A DNA stretch of 64,000 nt from Pseudonocardia thermophila (GTDB lineage Bacteria; Actinomycetota; Actinomycetes; Mycobacteriales; Pseudonocardiaceae), in contig NZ_FRAP01000004.1 of the NCBI RefSeq assembly GCF_900142365.1, forward strand, positions 186,001 through 250,000. Direction: 5' to 3'. Numbering within the stretch: position 1 is the stretch's first letter; each line of letters begins with the position of its first letter. The notes under the pieces were generated by a model. The model was not told where the DNA came from. It saw nothing but the letters and a program-made list of their open reading frames with translations, and made no database searches. Of the stretch, positions 14,110 to 20,924 are shown one piece after another. A program made the translations under genes and the position numbers.

Positions 14110-17100
14110 TCACCAGCCGTAGAACACGCGCTCCACGACCGCCCGGGCCCGCCGGGTCGCACGGCGGTAGTCGTCGACGAACACCCCCGGGTCCCCGTCA
14201 GCCGGGTAGCCCATGGCGTGCGCGACGGCGACGAGCTCGCGCCCCGACCGCGGCAGCTGGTCGCCCGGCTTGCCGCGCACGAGCATGATCGCGTTGCGGG
14301 CGCGGGTGGCCATGGTCCAGCCCGCCTCCAGCGCGGCCGCGTCGGAGGGCGAGATCAGCTCGGCGGCGACGGCCTCGCGCAGCCCCTCCAGCGTCGACGT
14401 CGTGCGCAGCTCGGGGATGTCGCCCGCGTGCTGCAGCTGCAGCAGCTGCACGGTCCACTCGACGTCGGCGAGCCCGCCGTGGCCGAGTTTCGTGTGCGTG
14501 CTGCGGTCGGCGCCGCGGGGCAGCCGCTCCGCGTCGACGCGGGCCTTGATACGCCGGATCTCCGCGACGGCGGCCGCGCTGAGCCCCTCGGGCGGGTAGC
14601 GGATCGGGTCGATCAGCTCGATGAACCGCCGGCCCAGGTCCGCGTCGCCGGCGACCGGCCGGGCGCGCAGCAGCGCCTGCGCCTCCCACACCTCCGACCA
14701 GCGCTCGTAGTAGGAGCGGTAGGACTCCAACGTGCGCACGAGCGGCCCGTTGCGACCCTCCGGGCGCAGGTCCGCGTCGACGATCAGCGCCGGGTCGGGG
14801 CTCGGGGCGCCCAGCGTGCGGCGCACCGTCTCCGCGACGGTGGTGGCGTAGCGGACCGCTTCCCGCTCGTCGGCGCCCTCGACGGGCTCGCACACGAACA
14901 GGACGTCGGCGTCGCTGCCGTAGCCCAGCTCGCTGCCGCCGAGGCGGCCCATGCCGATCACCGCGATGCGCGCCGCCCGCTCGGTGCCCTCCGCCTTGAG
15001 GGTGCGCTCGACGGCGTCGAGGGTCGCCTGCAGCACCGCCACCCACACCGACGACAGCGCCGCGCACACCTCCGGCGTGGACAGCACCCCCAGCAGATCG
15101 GCGCAGGCGACGCGGAGCAGCTCGTGGCGGCGCAGGGACCGGGCGGTGGCCGCCGCGCTGGCCGGATCGGTGTGCCGGGCCACCGACAGCCGCAGCGAGT
15201 TCGCGACCTCGGCCGGATCGCGGGTGAGGTCGTCGGAGAACCCGGTGCTCGGCGCCGCGAGCATGCGCAGCACCTCCGGCGCGCGCACCAGCAGGTCCGG
15301 GACCAGCGCGGACGTGCCCAGAAGGTGCATGAGCCGGTTGGCGACCTGGCCCTCGTCGCGCAGCAGCCGCAGGTACCACGGGGTGTCCGCCAGTGCCTCG
15401 GACACCCGTCGGTAGGCCAGCAGGCCGCGGTCGGGATCCGGGGTGCGGGACAGCTCGTCGAGCAGGACGGGCAGCAGCGCCGTCTGGATGGCCGCCGCCC
15501 GGGAGATCCCCGACGTGAGCGCGCGCAGGTGGTTGAGCGCCCCCTCCGGCGACACCCAACCCAGCGCCTTCATCCGCGCCTTCGCTGCCTCCTCCGACAG
15601 CCGCCCGACGTCGCCGAGATCGGCCGTCACCCGTGCCACGGCCGACAGCAGCGGTCGGTAGAACAGCTTCTGGTGCAGCCGGCGCACCCGCCGCGCGTTG
15701 CGCTGCCACTCGTTGAGGAGCACGCCGACCACGTCGTAGCGCCCATCGGGCCGCATGCGCGCGGCCCGCGCCAGCCAGCGCAGCGCCTCGGTGTCCTGCG
15801 GCGGCGGCAGCTGGTGGGTGCGGCGCATCCGCTGCAGCTGCAGGCGGTGCTCCAGCAGCCGCAGGAACCGGTACGACGCGGCGAGGTTGGCACCGTCGTC
15901 GCGGCCGACGTAGCCGCCGTCGCGCAGCGCGGCGAGCGCCTCCAGGGTCGTCGGGGAACGCAGTGACTCGTCGGTGCGGCCGTGCACCAGCTGCAGCAGC
16001 TGCACCGCGAACTCGACGTCGCGCAGCCCGCCCGGGCCCAGCTTCAGCTCGCGGTCGGCGAGATCGGGGCGGATGTGCTCCTCGACGCGGCGACGCATCG
16101 CCTGCACTTCGGCGACGAAATCCTCCCGGCCCGCGGCGCTCCACACCATCGGTGCGACCGCCTCGGTGTAGGCCTTGCCCAGCTCGGCGTCCCCGGCGAC
16201 CGGGCGGGCCTTGAGCAGCGCCTGGAACTCCCAGGTCTTCGCCCACCGCTTGTAGTAGCTGACGTGTCCCTCCAGGGTGCGCACGAGCGCGCCCTGCCGG
16301 CCCTCCGGCCGCAGGTTCGCGTCGACCTGGAAGCAGGCCTCCCCCGCGACGCGCATCATGCGGTTGGCGAGCTTCGTGGTCGCCTGGTCGGCGGGCTCGG
16401 CGACGAACACGACGTCGACGTCGCTGACGTAGTTCAGCTCGTGCCCGCCGCACTTGCCCATGGCGATCACGGCGAGCCTGCCCACCTCGCCCACCTCGGC
16501 GACCGCCACCGCGAGCGCCGCCTTGAGCGCGGCCGCGGCCAGGTCGGACAGCCGCGCGGTGACGTCCTCGATCTCCATGACGGGCAGCTCCGGCTCCCCG
16601 ACGGCGGCGAGGTCGGCCGCGGCGAGCGCCATGACCTCGTCACGGTAGACCGCACGCAGCGCGGCGATCGCCTCCGCACCGGTGAGCCGGGCCGCGCTGC
16701 CGCCCGGGGACCCGGCAGGCGGCGCGTCGGGATCGGCCCCCACGGCCCGCAGCATCGTGGCCGCCGCGCCCTCCGCGTCGGCCGGGCCGACGTCACCGGC
16801 GAGCCGGTGCCAGCGGTCCGGGTGGGTGACGAGGTGGTCGGTGAGCGCGGTCGAGCTGCCCAGCAGCGCGGTGAGCCGGCCGCGCAACCGCACGTCGCTG
16901 CGCAGCGCGGCGTCGAGCTCGGTCCGGTCGGAGACGGCGTTCATGAGCCGCTCCATGCCGCGCAGCGCGGCGTTCGGATCGGGGCTGCGGGCGAGCGCCC
17001 ACATCACCTGCTCGGCACCGGGCGTCGGTCCGTCGTCCCCCCACCAGCCGAACTCCCGGAGAGTGGACTCGGCCCAGCTCTCCGTGAGGCCGAGCAGTGT

Positions 17101-17127
17101 GAGCGAGGCGCCGGTCCGTCGATCCAC
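14110..17127 (-). CDS. glnE: Glutamine synthetase adenylyltransferase/adenylyl-removing enzyme
   Basis: Bifunctional enzyme that adds and removes AMP on GlnA1 according to nitrogen state; 1005 residues, close to the usual length. Two nucleotidyltransferase domains are visible: the N-terminal removing domain with GKCGGHELNYVSDVDVVFV (about 222) and the C-terminal transferase domain with GMGRLGGSELGYGSDADVLF (about 724). Each is followed by a RPEGRxGxLVRTLE segment and a GGLxDVEx(A/W)VQLLQL segment. The GTG start is the first plausible one after the preceding gene's stop (22-base gap). It is the last gene of a galE - GNAT/DUF397 - glnE unit, unlike Mycobacterium where it lies beside glnA1. Confidence 0.96.
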   Translation of the reverse strand: MDRRTGASLTLLGLTESWAESTLREFGWWGDDGPTPGAEQVMWALARSPDPNAALRGMERLMNAVSDRTELDAALRSDVRLRGRLTALLGSSTALTDHLVTHPDRWHRLAGDVGPADAEGAAATMLRAVGADPDAPPAGSPGGSAARLTGAEAIAALRAVYRDEVMALAAADLAAVGEPELPVMEIEDVTARLSDLAAAALKAALAVAVAEVGEVGRLAVIAMGKCGGHELNYVSDVDVVFVAEPADQATTKLANRMMRVAGEACFQVDANLRPEGRQGALVRTLEGHVSYYKRWAKTWEFQALLKARPVAGDAELGKAYTEAVAPMVWSAAGREDFVAEVQAMRRRVEEHIRPDLADRELKLGPGGLRDVEFAVQLLQLVHGRTDESLRSPTTLEALAALRDGGYVGRDDGANLAASYRFLRLLEHRLQLQRMRRTHQLPPPQDTEALRWLARAARMRPDGRYDVVGVLLNEWQRNARRVRRLHQKLFYRPLLSAVARVTADLGDVGRLSEEAAKARMKALGWVSPEGALNHLRALTSGISRAAAIQTALLPVLLDELSRTPDPDRGLLAYRRVSEALADTPWYLRLLRDEGQVANRLMHLLGTSALVPDLLVRAPEVLRMLAAPSTGFSDDLTRDPAEVANSLRLSVARHTDPASAAATARSLRRHELLRVACADLLGVLSTPEVCAALSSVWVAVLQATLDAVERTLKAEGTERAARIAVIGMGRLGGSELGYGSDADVLFVCEPVEGADEREAVRYATTVAETVRRTLGAPSPDPALIVDADLRPEGRNGPLVRTLESYRSYYERWSEVWEAQALLRARPVAGDADLGRRFIELIDPIRYPPEGLSAAAVAEIRRIKARVDAERLPRGADRSTHTKLGHGGLADVEWTVQLLQLQHAGDIPELRTTSTLEGLREAVAAELISPSDAAALEAGWTMATRARNAIMLVRGKPGDQLPRSGRELVAVAHAMGYPADGDPGVFVDDYRRATRRARAVVERVFYGW

Positions 17128-17149: not shown

Positions 17150-18199
17150 TCAGGGAGTGTCGAACTCGCCCGCCCGCACGCCGGCCAGGAACGCCCGCCA
17201 TTCGTCGGGGGTGAACCGCAGGGGTGGCCGACCGGCCGCGGTGGACGCGGTCGTGCGCAGGAGCACGTCACCGCCGGGAAGCACGGCGATCTCGACCGCA
17301 CCGCCGTCGGCGTCGCTCGCGACGCTGCTGCGCCGCCAGCGCGGCTCCTCCACGAGGGCCGGGACGAAGTCGAGATCCAGCCCGTCGTAGACCGGCACGA
17401 ACCCGAGCTGCGGGTAGAGCCGGTTCGGCCCGGGCTCGGCGCGATCGGTGAACAGCACGACGTGCCGGGCCCCCGCGGCCCGCGCCCAGCGGGCAGCCGC
17501 GGCGGTGACGGCGGCCGCGTAGCCGCGCCGGCGCTGATCCGGCGGGGTGTAGACGGGCCCGATGCGCGACATCCCGGCGACCGGCAGCCGGGCCGTGGCC
17601 TGCGCGACCGGGCGGCCGTCGACGATCCACAGCAGCTCGCCACCACCGGAGCGGGCCAGCTCCTGGCGCATCGCGGCCAGGTCGGGCACCGACAAGTTCG
17701 ACGAGGCCGTGTCCGCGACGAACCCCGCCCGCCACGAGCACAGCAGCTCCGCGTCGGCGACCCCGGCGGGTCGCACCGCCCCCGGCACGCCCTGCGGCGG
17801 GACGAGGGTGCCCAGCTCGTACAGCCGCAGCGTGCGGTCGACGCGCACCGCTCCCCCGTGTCGCGCACGGTGGGCCTCGGCGAACGCCTCCGCCGCCGCG
17901 GTGGGCCCGTGCGCCCCACTGACCGCGACGCCCGCGGCCGCCAGCGCGGCGACGGCGGCGGGCGCGTGCTCGGGCGCCAGGCCGGAGACGATCAGCCGGT
18001 GGCCCGGACTCGCCAGCAGCGCACCGACCGGGGCGCCGGCCTCGTGCACGGTGGCGAGCAGCGCGGCCGGATCACCGTGGCGCACCATCCCGTCGAGGAC
18101 GGTCAGCGCGATCGTGTGCCGGGCGGGATCGCGGGCGTAGAGCGGCTGGGCGAGCGCCGCGAACTCCGCGACGCGCTCGTGCAGGACGACCTCGACCAT
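17150..18199 (-). CDS. GNAT acetyltransferase fused to a DUF397 domain
   Basis: 349-residue protein. An N-terminal half of uncertain fold (1-130) is followed by a GNAT domain (about 135-285) with the acetyl-CoA loop QRRRGYAAAVTAAA and ending LYPQLGFVPVYDG. The last 60 residues form a DUF397 domain: WRRSSVASDADGG, VEIAVLPGGDVLLR, PLRFTPDEWRAFLAGVRAGEF. DUF397 proteins are normally small separate partners of XRE-type regulators in actinobacteria, so the fusion is unusual. The reading frame is uninterrupted through the joint. The ATG lies four bases after the galE stop. Confidence 0.82.
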   Translation of the reverse strand: MVEVVLHERVAEFAALAQPLYARDPARHTIALTVLDGMVRHGDPAALLATVHEAGAPVGALLASPGHRLIVSGLAPEHAPAAVAALAAAGVAVSGAHGPTAAAEAFAEAHRARHGGAVRVDRTLRLYELGTLVPPQGVPGAVRPAGVADAELLCSWRAGFVADTASSNLSVPDLAAMRQELARSGGGELLWIVDGRPVAQATARLPVAGMSRIGPVYTPPDQRRRGYAAAVTAAAARWARAAGARHVVLFTDRAEPGPNRLYPQLGFVPVYDGLDLDFVPALVEEPRWRRSSVASDADGGAVEIAVLPGGDVLLRTTASTAAGRPPLRFTPDEWRAFLAGVRAGEFDTP

Positions 18200-18203
18200 G
18201 GGC

Positions 18204-19229
18204 TCAGGCGTCGGGGTAGCCGTTCGGGTTGTGCGACTGCCAGCGCCACGCATCGGCGCACATGTCGTCGATGGTGCGGGTGGCCTGCCAGCCCAGCTCG
18301 GCCTTCGCCCGGCTCACGTCCGCGTAGCTGACGGGCAGGTCGCCGGGCCGCCGATCGACGATCTCGTACGGGATGGGCCGCCCGACCGCGCGCTCGAACG
18401 CGTGCAGCATCTCCAGCACCGACGTGCCCTGCCCGGTGCCGAGGTTGAACGCCCGCGCGGGCTCGGTGGCCCGCTCCAGGTACTCCAGCGCCGCGACGTG
18501 CCCCTCGGCCAGGTCCTCGACGTGGATGAAGTCGCGGATGCAGGTGCCGTCCGGCGTGGGGTAGTCGCCGCCGAACACCCGCAGCTTCTCCCGCCGACCC
18601 ACCGCGACCTGCGCGATGAACGGCACGAGGTTGTTCGGGATGCCGCCGGGGTCTTCGCCGATCGTGCCCGACGGGTGGGCGCCGACCGGGTTGAAGTACC
18701 GCAGGAGCGCCACTTTCATGCCGGGCACGGCGTGCGCGACGTCGGTGAGGATGTGCTCCAGCATCACCTTGCTGCGCCCGTACGGGTTGACGGCCTCGAT
18801 CGGCACATCGTCGTCCTCGCGGTAGGGCAGCTTCGACCGCGGCCCGTACACGGTGGCCGACGAGGAGAACACCAGCTTCCGGGTGCCGTGCCGCTCCATG
18901 GCGCGCAGCAGCGAGAACGTGGTGTCGAGGTTGTTGGAGTAGTAGGCCAGCGGCTTCTCGACGCTCTCCCCCACCGCCTTGAACCCGGCGAAGTGCACGA
19001 CCGCGTCGATCTGCTCGGACGCGAAGAGCCGGTCGGTCTTGTCGCGGTCGGTCAGATCGAACACGTGCAGCGGGATCTCCCGCCCGGCCAGGGCCGCGAG
19101 CCGGCCCATCACGGCCGGCTTGCTGTTGGAGAAGTCGTCGACCACGACGACGCTGTGCCCGGCCCTCACCAGCGCCAGGACGGTGTGCGACCCGATGTAG
19201 CCGGCTCCGCCGGACACGAGTACGTGCAT
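18204..19229 (-). CDS. galE: UDP-glucose 4-epimerase
   Basis: Interconverts UDP-glucose and UDP-galactose for cell-wall and capsule sugars; 341 residues. NAD-binding GGAGYIGSHTVLALVRAGH, catalytic SSSATVYG and YGRSK (YxxxK), LRYFNPVGAHPSG and RDFIHVEDLAEGH are all intact, and the length is standard. First gene of the unit leading into the GNAT/DUF397 gene and glnE. No other sugar-metabolism gene is near. Confidence 0.94.
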   Translation of the reverse strand: MHVLVSGGAGYIGSHTVLALVRAGHSVVVVDDFSNSKPAVMGRLAALAGREIPLHVFDLTDRDKTDRLFASEQIDAVVHFAGFKAVGESVEKPLAYYSNNLDTTFSLLRAMERHGTRKLVFSSSATVYGPRSKLPYREDDDVPIEAVNPYGRSKVMLEHILTDVAHAVPGMKVALLRYFNPVGAHPSGTIGEDPGGIPNNLVPFIAQVAVGRREKLRVFGGDYPTPDGTCIRDFIHVEDLAEGHVAALEYLERATEPARAFNLGTGQGTSVLEMLHAFERAVGRPIPYEIVDRRPGDLPVSYADVSRAKAELGWQATRTIDDMCADAWRWQSHNPNGYPDA

Positions 19230-19580: not shown

Positions 19581-20924
19581 TCAGAGCACCGGCAGGTACG
19601 TGGCCAGCTCGTACGGCGTGACCTGGCGGCGGTAGTTGTCCCACTCCACCCGCTTGTTGCGCAGGAAGAAGTCGAACACGTGCTCGCCGAGGATCTCCGC
19701 GACCAGCTCCGAGTGCTCCATCGCCGACAGCGCCTCGGTGAGGTTCTGCGGCAGCGACTCGTAGCCCAGCGCCCGCCGCTCGGTGTCGGTGAGCGACCAG
19801 ACGTCGTCCTCGGTGGGCGGGCCCAGCTCGTAGCCCTTCGCGATGCCCTGCAGGCCGGCGCCGAGGATCACCGCGAACGCCAGGTACGGGTTGCACGCGG
19901 TGTCCAGCGTGCGGATCTCCACCCGGCGCGACGACGACTTGCCCGGCGAGTACATCGGCACCCGGACGAGCGCGGAGCGGTTCGCGTGCCCCCACGACAC
20001 CGCGGTCGGGGCCTCACCGCCGACGATGAGCCGCTTGTAGGAGTTCACCCACTGGTTGGTGACCGCGGAGATCTCCCGCGCGTGCCGCAGCACGCCCGCC
20101 ACGAACGCCTTGCCGGTGTCCGAGAGCTCGTACGGGTCGTCGGGGTCGTGGAAGGCGTTGCGGTCGCCCTCGAACAGCGAGAAGTGGGTGTGCATGGCCG
20201 AACCGGGCTTGTCCGAGAACGGCTTGGGCATGAAGGACGCCCGCACGCCCTGCGTGATCGCGACCTCCTTGACCACGTACCGGAAGGTCATGATGTTGTC
20301 GGCCATGGTCAGGGCGTCGGCGTAGCGCAGGTCGATCTCCTGCTGGCCCGGGCCCACCTCGTGGTGGCTGAACTCCACCGAGATGCCCATCGCCTCCAGC
20401 GTCTCGATCACGTTGCGCCGGAAGTGCGGGGCCACGTCGTGGCTGGCCTGGTCGAAGTACCCGCCGGTGTCGGCCGGCACGGGCACGCTGCCGTCACCGG
20501 GCAGGTCGCGCAGCAGGTAGAACTCGATCTCCGGGTGCACGTAGCAGGTGAACCCGGCCTCGGCCGCCTTCGACAGCGCCCGCCGCAGCACGTGCCGCGG
20601 ATCCGCCCAGGACGGCGAGCCGTCGGGCATCGCGATGTCGCAGAACATCCGCGCCGCGTAGTGCCCGCCCGACCCGGTGGACCACGGGAGCACTTGGAAC
20701 GTGGAGGGATCCGGGCGCGCCACCATGTCCGACTCGTAGACGCGCGCGAACCCCTGGATGGCCGAGCCGTCGAAGCCGATGCCCTCGGTGAACGCGCCCT
20801 CCAGCTCCGCCGGTGCGACCGCCACCGACTTCAGGAAGCCGAGGACGTCGGTGAACCACAGCCGCACGAAGCGGATGTCGCGCTCCTCGAGCGTGCGGAG
20901 CACGAACTCCTGCTGCCGATCCAT
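19581..20924 (-). CDS. glnA2: Second glutamine synthetase (GlnA2 type)
   Basis: 447-residue glutamine synthetase family enzyme, the counterpart of mycobacterial GlnA2. Catalytic-domain marks are present: GIGFDGSAIQGF, YVHPEIEFYLL, MHTHFSLFEGDRNAF, NRSALVRVP and NPYLAFAVILGAGL. At the position of the adenylylation tyrosine of GlnA1 the sequence reads DDVWSLTDTE, with Trp376, so GlnE cannot modify it there. Its physiological substrate could be glutamate plus ammonium or another amino donor. A GlnR-type box precedes it. Confidence 0.93.
   Translation of the reverse strand: MDRQQEFVLRTLEERDIRFVRLWFTDVLGFLKSVAVAPAELEGAFTEGIGFDGSAIQGFARVYESDMVARPDPSTFQVLPWSTGSGGHYAARMFCDIAMPDGSPSWADPRHVLRRALSKAAEAGFTCYVHPEIEFYLLRDLPGDGSVPVPADTGGYFDQASHDVAPHFRRNVIETLEAMGISVEFSHHEVGPGQQEIDLRYADALTMADNIMTFRYVVKEVAITQGVRASFMPKPFSDKPGSAMHTHFSLFEGDRNAFHDPDDPYELSDTGKAFVAGVLRHAREISAVTNQWVNSYKRLIVGGEAPTAVSWGHANRSALVRVPMYSPGKSSSRRVEIRTLDTACNPYLAFAVILGAGLQGIAKGYELGPPTEDDVWSLTDTERRALGYESLPQNLTEALSAMEHSELVAEILGEHVFDFFLRNKRVEWDNYRRQVTPYELATYLPVL

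Follow-up and report, generated by a model that had tools for sequence, protein, structure and literature searches.

The closest described systems are the XRE–DUF397 pairs WhiJ/BldB and Scr1/Scr2, the WhiJ/BldB type being a proposed toxin–antitoxin system. The available part of the family description (PMC7159879) gives the DUF397 fold as four strands with a terminal helix and names two family motifs, CxE in strand 2 and R-D-S after strand 3. Among DUF397 proteins, BldB has been studied most. According to the accessible sections of PMC10294661, it matches the family poorly, retains few conserved residues and, as an orphan, is located away from whiJ, yet it is functional, and two-hybrid tests showed it to interact with most of its paralogs. 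The initial annotation of the locus described here pointed out that a DUF397 protein is as a rule short, encoded on its own and paired with an XRE regulator, and our comparison supports this. No description of a fusion between a GNAT acetyltransferase and DUF397 was found in the available portions of the literature on DUF397, WhiJ/BldB, DUF397 together with acetyltransferase, or glnE together with acetyltransferase (including PMC2701414, PMC13097080 and PMC10364602).

Results

The window, i.e., the whole stretch of 64,000 nucleotides of Pseudonocardia thermophila analysed here, encodes on its minus strand a protein of 349 residues which, together with its stop codon, is read from a single frame (17150..18199). 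The Pfam scan placed GNAT (PF00583) at residues 175–267 with 36.4 bits (cut-off 20.7) and DUF397 (PF04149) at residues 287–342 with 41.1 bits (cut-off 24), and the last 65 residues on their own scored 45.1 bits for DUF397. This confirmed the initial annotation, which had read a GNAT enzyme with a C-terminal DUF397 in one continuous frame and had located the latter at residues 285–349, correct to within two residues. The fused DUF397 domain was also recovered, above the cut-off and free of stops, when the genome of the window was searched in all six frames.

Three parts of the protein can be distinguished on the minus strand, namely the acetyltransferase part (residues 1–278; 17366..18199), a linker with the sequence VPALVEEPR (residues 279–287; 17339..17365), and the DUF397 domain (residues 287–349 plus the stop codon; 17150..17341). 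The linker resembles the MPAP[IV]P N-terminus of the DUF397 genes found at this locus in relatives, a likeness that is suggestive only. The reading of VPAL as a fossil start codon (compare MPAP) was set aside as no more than suggestive, V279 being encoded by GTC.

The acetyltransferase part carries the sequence RRRGYA at residues 223–228, which we take to be the acetyl-CoA loop, and combines it with the Pfam score and the GNAT fold expected of a member of this family. The AlphaFold2 model of the full-length fusion (mean pLDDT 91.1) shows a two-domain GNAT followed by the DUF397 tail, in which the strands 289–295, 301–306, 312–316, and 327–329 precede a helix at 331–342. It should be noted that the tail (pLDDT blocks of 68–88) was modelled without relatives in this case, because the other rows stop near residue 280. 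The model of the tail alone with 16 DUF397 relatives gave the identical order of elements at a mean pLDDT of 83.2, so that the predicted fold has the four strands and terminal helix of DUF397 in the available description (PMC7159879). The Foldseek search matched the GNAT part to the tandem GNATs 3iwg (E 1.3e-11), 7q3a (E 3.4e-10), and MshD 1ozp (E 1.6e-9). For the tail, the same search gave nothing significant (best E 0.4), and no solved structure matching DUF397 by sequence was found.

The tail codes as other DUF397 domains do: its coding signal per codon is 0.235, and 90 others average 0.237 (sd 0.130). Meanwhile, both family motifs are lost. CxE has become A-V-E and R-D-S has become R-T-T, whereas C[VLI]E and R[DNH][STG] are each kept in 89 of the 91 sampled domains. 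The sole other domain of the 91 that lacks the motifs is a stand-alone DUF397 of genome G039, which follows an XRE and a further DUF397; the loss of the motifs is therefore not peculiar to the fusion. Since BldB is divergent, orphaned, and functional, the loss alone is also no proof that the tail is dead. The G039 gene (locus L154, 1490–1729), which lay outside the Pfam scan, lacks both CxE and R-D-S and adjoins the XRE and a partly duplicated DUF397.

All four genes of the neighbourhood lie on the minus strand, in the order of transcription glnA2 (20924..19581), galE (19229..18204), the fusion (18199..17150), and glnE (17127..14110). The name glnA2 for the glutamine synthetase gene at 19581..20924 is our assumption from the gene order of Mycobacterium; the GNAT genes of relatives have the same conserved neighbour. 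The fusion is separated from galE by 4 bases and from glnE by 22 bases, and it indeed stands in front of glnE, as had been claimed. Pfam confirmed galE and glnE; the proposed operon is suggested by the spacing alone. The Rfam and tRNA scans of the window showed nothing at the fusion locus.

The loci of relatives were mapped using a codon-based gene caller made for this analysis, without curated annotation. The GNAT gene adjoins glnA2 and/or glnE in 28 of the 30 mapped loci of the genus (the window included); one gene separates GNAT and glnE in G048, and neither neighbour is present in G014. Among the 30 mapped loci, that of the window is the only one with galE between glnA2 and GNAT.

In several relatives, an XRE–DUF397 pair occupies this very locus. 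The genome G023 carries glnA2, GNAT, XRE, DUF397, and glnE on one strand, and in G036 GNAT and XRE are followed by a DUF397 that has lost an internal segment, and then by glnE. In G012, G017, and G043 (in the last of these the DUF397 was identified by eye), glnA2, GNAT, XRE, and DUF397 are followed by other genes, and glnE lies about 4–13 kb further on. In G037 and G021, XRE and DUF397 precede glnE without GNAT, and in G035 the XRE of the corresponding stretch near glnE is broken. Thus, an XRE of the same subfamily, in some copies decayed, is found near glnE in seven relatives besides G023. According to Pfam, the XRE of the locus is a standard protein with HTH_31 and DUF5753. A spacer of the CTTTCACCTG type, similar among relatives when compared by eye, precedes the XREs of the locus. 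Inspection by eye of 30 downstream stretches revealed no DUF397 remnants behind GNAT in the relatives lacking XRE; the damaged copy of G036 sits farther downstream, behind the XRE of that genome.

Upstream of the locus XRE, G036 (L055, 5195–5431) and G017 (L058, 5441–5680) carry divergent genes of 78–79 residues, which have no significant Pfam match and are comparable in position to iosA beside whiJ9.

The XREs of the locus from five genomes are 68–91% identical to one another. This subfamily has no match in the window genome at E<=1e-75, nor does the window retain any remnant of an XRE. Elsewhere, the window genome encodes three more distant XREs, each beside its own DUF397 gene, and one weak match; the three share 33–38% identity with the XREs of the locus. 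A cognate XRE for the tail, which the initial annotation had proposed to look for, was not found in the window genome.

In the glnE tree (58 rows, G035 not among them), the window and all seven rows with an XRE at the locus fall inside one clade of 17 rows (98/94), where the XRE-bearing rows are split over two separate branches. The row nearest to the window is G045, whose locus is broken up and lacks XRE. In the XRE tree (30 rows), all eight XREs of the locus belong to one group of 16 rows, in which G023 and G036 branch first and off-locus copies are nested, the basal fork being weak (82/39). At least three changes of the locus label are required on this tree. The tree fits a single origin at the locus from which copies would later have moved out; two insertions would likewise be compatible with the split of the XRE-bearing rows over two branches.

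The distribution of the fusion was examined by searching with the fusion protein. Among 62 genomes of the genus (E<=1e-10), 34 gave a match, in three of them (G021, G032, and G051) to the DUF397 part only. Of the remaining 31 genomes with GNAT, the window genome alone has a stop-free match over residues 1–349, and the GNAT of relatives ends near residue 280. The search of 390 genomes of the family, which scored five candidates per genome, found a match in 177; among the matches listed, the window's was the only stop-free run through both domains, and the few that reach past residue 300 all cross stops. As five candidates were scored per genome and the comparison covers the matches listed, this is no proof of absence from the family. 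The twelve loci matched in a named collection are DUF397 genes, several without a gene model, and a GNAT fusion was called in none of them. The same fusion was thus not found in relatives, as far as the 31 genomes with GNAT and the listed family matches reach. The GNAT–DUF397 fusion is real and, as far as seen, restricted to one species.

DUF397 genes themselves are present in 61 of the 62 genomes of the genus, and one genome has as many as 36. Of the 95 distinct called DUF397 genes in the retrieved loci, which had been deliberately enriched for long open frames, four exceed 100 residues: the window fusion, L186 of G022 (343 aa), L148 of G018 (called as 170 aa), and the tandem DUF397 L150 (127 aa). 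L186 (1510–2541) and L148 (796–1308) are in-frame XRE–DUF397 fusions, a hint that XRE and DUF397 proteins work together.

Discussion

The account that we favour, with a probability of roughly 0.65 as a whole, is that the fusion arose by deletion of XRE and that its product is an enzyme with a tolerated, folded DUF397 passenger. The ancestor would have carried glnA2, GNAT, an XRE of the WhiJ type, a DUF397 of the BldB type, and glnE. In the window lineage, the XRE gene would have been lost together with both spacers, and the DUF397 gene would have come to continue the reading frame of the acetyltransferase gene at its end. This would yield an otherwise ordinary tandem-GNAT acetyltransferase that ends in a small, folded DUF397 domain. 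The XREs at the locus in relatives, the trees, and the absence of this XRE from the window genome make deletion with fusion the parsimonious history, and the XRE–DUF397 fusions of G022 and G018 indicate that a DUF397 gene can fuse to the gene upstream of it. We infer the deletion event itself from these comparisons and consider this part of the account very probable. Points that speak against it are that the window retains no trace of an XRE, that the XRE-bearing rows fall in two branches of the glnE tree, that G045, the row nearest to the window there, has a broken-up locus lacking XRE, and that the tail is not clearly closest to the DUF397s of the locus.

The acetyltransferase part is probably active, because its sequence, loop motif, and fold are conserved and its rate is like that of its clade mates. 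The distance of the window GNAT to the outgroups is 0.872, compared with 0.755–0.925 in 14 clade mates. An acceleration of GNAT after the fusion, considered because of a long branch in the GNAT tree, was not borne out by these distances; among nine clade rows, the glnE of the window likewise shows the greatest distance to the outgroups. The fusion enzyme presumably uses acetyl-CoA as in relatives, and we regard it as a putative acetyltransferase whose position suggests a link to glutamine metabolism.

For the tail, we see about an even chance that it is a tolerated passenger rather than a working module. As a passenger, it would fold, leave the enzyme undisturbed, and ride along, and at most it may keep some residual self- or hetero-oligomerisation, with no DNA-bound partner. 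The ordinary coding signal and the good predicted fold weaken this view, as does the example of BldB, described in the available text of PMC10294661 as functional in spite of being divergent and orphaned. We consider it unlikely that the tail is instead a working module which recruits the acetyltransferase in trans to WhiJ/BldB-type complexes, via other DUF397s or an XRE, and thereby ties acetylation or enzyme activity to the WhiJ/BldB network. The three XRE–DUF397 pairs elsewhere in the genome and the pairing of BldB with most paralogs would provide partners for a tail that codes normally and is predicted to fold. The cognate XRE is absent, however, the XREs of the genome being distant from those of the locus; CxE and R-D-S are both lost, and the fusion occurs in one species only among the matches listed. 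The remaining probability belongs to mixtures of the two readings.

Hetero-oligomerisation of the tail with other DUF397 proteins is possible by analogy with BldB of Streptomyces, for which the accessible part of PMC10294661 describes it. It is doubtful that the tail acts in this way as an adaptor without a regulator of its own, one that hetero-oligomerises with the three remaining DUF397s so that the enzyme is recruited to, or competes in, WhiJ-type complexes and links them to nitrogen status. The idea put forward initially, that the tail tethers acetylation to a DUF397-recognising regulator, is possible and is left unsupported by the absence of a cognate regulator and the loss of both motifs.

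Concerning the origin of the tail, an independent insertion from elsewhere behind the GNAT gene, unrelated to the XRE–DUF397 pair of the locus, appears improbable. The tail shows no clear closest affinity to the DUF397s of the locus, its highest identities (60%) being to two DUF397s from other places, compared with 57% to the locus DUF397 of G017; about 60 residues are too few for its own sequence to settle the origin. The numerous DUF397 genes of the genus would also offer material for an insertion, and G032, which belongs to another clade, has a DUF397 on the opposite strand between glnA2 and glnE. Against this stand the exact positional match to G023 of the same clade (GNAT, DUF397, glnE) and the fact that the DUF397 of G032 also seems to be a leftover of a pair. 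Deletion of XRE followed by fusion is therefore preferred.

In G032, the intact opposite-strand DUF397 (L253, 1464–1798) overlaps with its start (ATGA) the stop of a frame of 44 residues. This frame has no Pfam match and aligns weakly to the C-terminus of XRE (6.8 bits, compared with 1.6 for the best of 500 shuffles). G032 thus seems to offer another instance in which XRE was lost while DUF397 was kept. Repeated palindromic elements of the ACTCATGGAGCTTC...GAAGCTCCATGAGTGG type flank this DUF397 (1455–1480 and 1824–1950); possibly, they are mobile extragenic repeats involved in the loss of XRE.

An assembly or sequencing artefact is very unlikely. The fusion is known from a single genome, a draft of 47 contigs (98.83% complete, 1.45% contaminated), but its locus is interior to a contig of 330 kb, the piece missing is a whole gene rather than a base, the join of 278 GNAT residues to a full DUF397 domain is continuous and in frame, and DUF397 is not readable in either other frame of that stretch. 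A frameshift or lost stop between adjacent genes, in its simple form, was rejected: an XRE separates the two genes in those relatives that have both here, which means that an error of a single base could not create the fusion, and the picture of two separate genes in relatives with a sequencing error in the window does not apply as worded. It is most improbable that the GTG at codon 283 (17353..17351) starts a separate DUF397 protein of 67 residues besides the fusion, since this in-frame codon (V283) lies four codons before the domain but no purine-rich Shine–Dalgarno-like stretch is seen by eye just upstream (GGATCTCGACTTCGTCCCGGCCCTC-GTG).

The loci form a natural series: the intact pair (G023), the broken DUF397 (G036), the apparent loss of XRE (G032), the XRE–DUF397 fusions at other places (G022 and G018), and the enzyme fusion of the window. 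The retention of DUF397 without XRE argues mildly against DUF397 as a toxin that needs XRE as its antitoxin, which agrees with the negative outcome of toxicity tests on Scr2 in the available part of PMC6262351. The fusion also offers a DUF397 domain that comes with its own carrier, which could help structural work.

Compared with the XRE–DUF397 pairs WhiJ/BldB and Scr1/Scr2, the tail is likewise a Pfam DUF397 with four predicted strands and a final helix, and relatives carry such a pair at this very locus. The window differs in that DUF397 forms the C-terminal end of an enzyme, XRE is gone, and both motifs are lost; in place of the adjacent XRE of a WhiJ/BldB-type pair, the neighbours are GNAT and glnE. 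With the stand-alone GNAT of the genus linked to glnA2 or glnE, the enzyme shares the tandem-GNAT architecture and 44–57% identity, whereas none of the other 29 loci carries DUF397 on its GNAT protein. The predicted two-domain fold is also that of MshD and other tandem GNATs, which are only 13–19% identical in the structural alignments; for the MshD equivalog of NCBIfam, the fusion scored 19.2 bits against a cut-off of 163.1. The in-frame XRE–DUF397 fusions of G022 and G018 resemble the window in that DUF397 is fused to the preceding gene, and they differ in that the partner is DUF397's own XRE rather than an enzyme.
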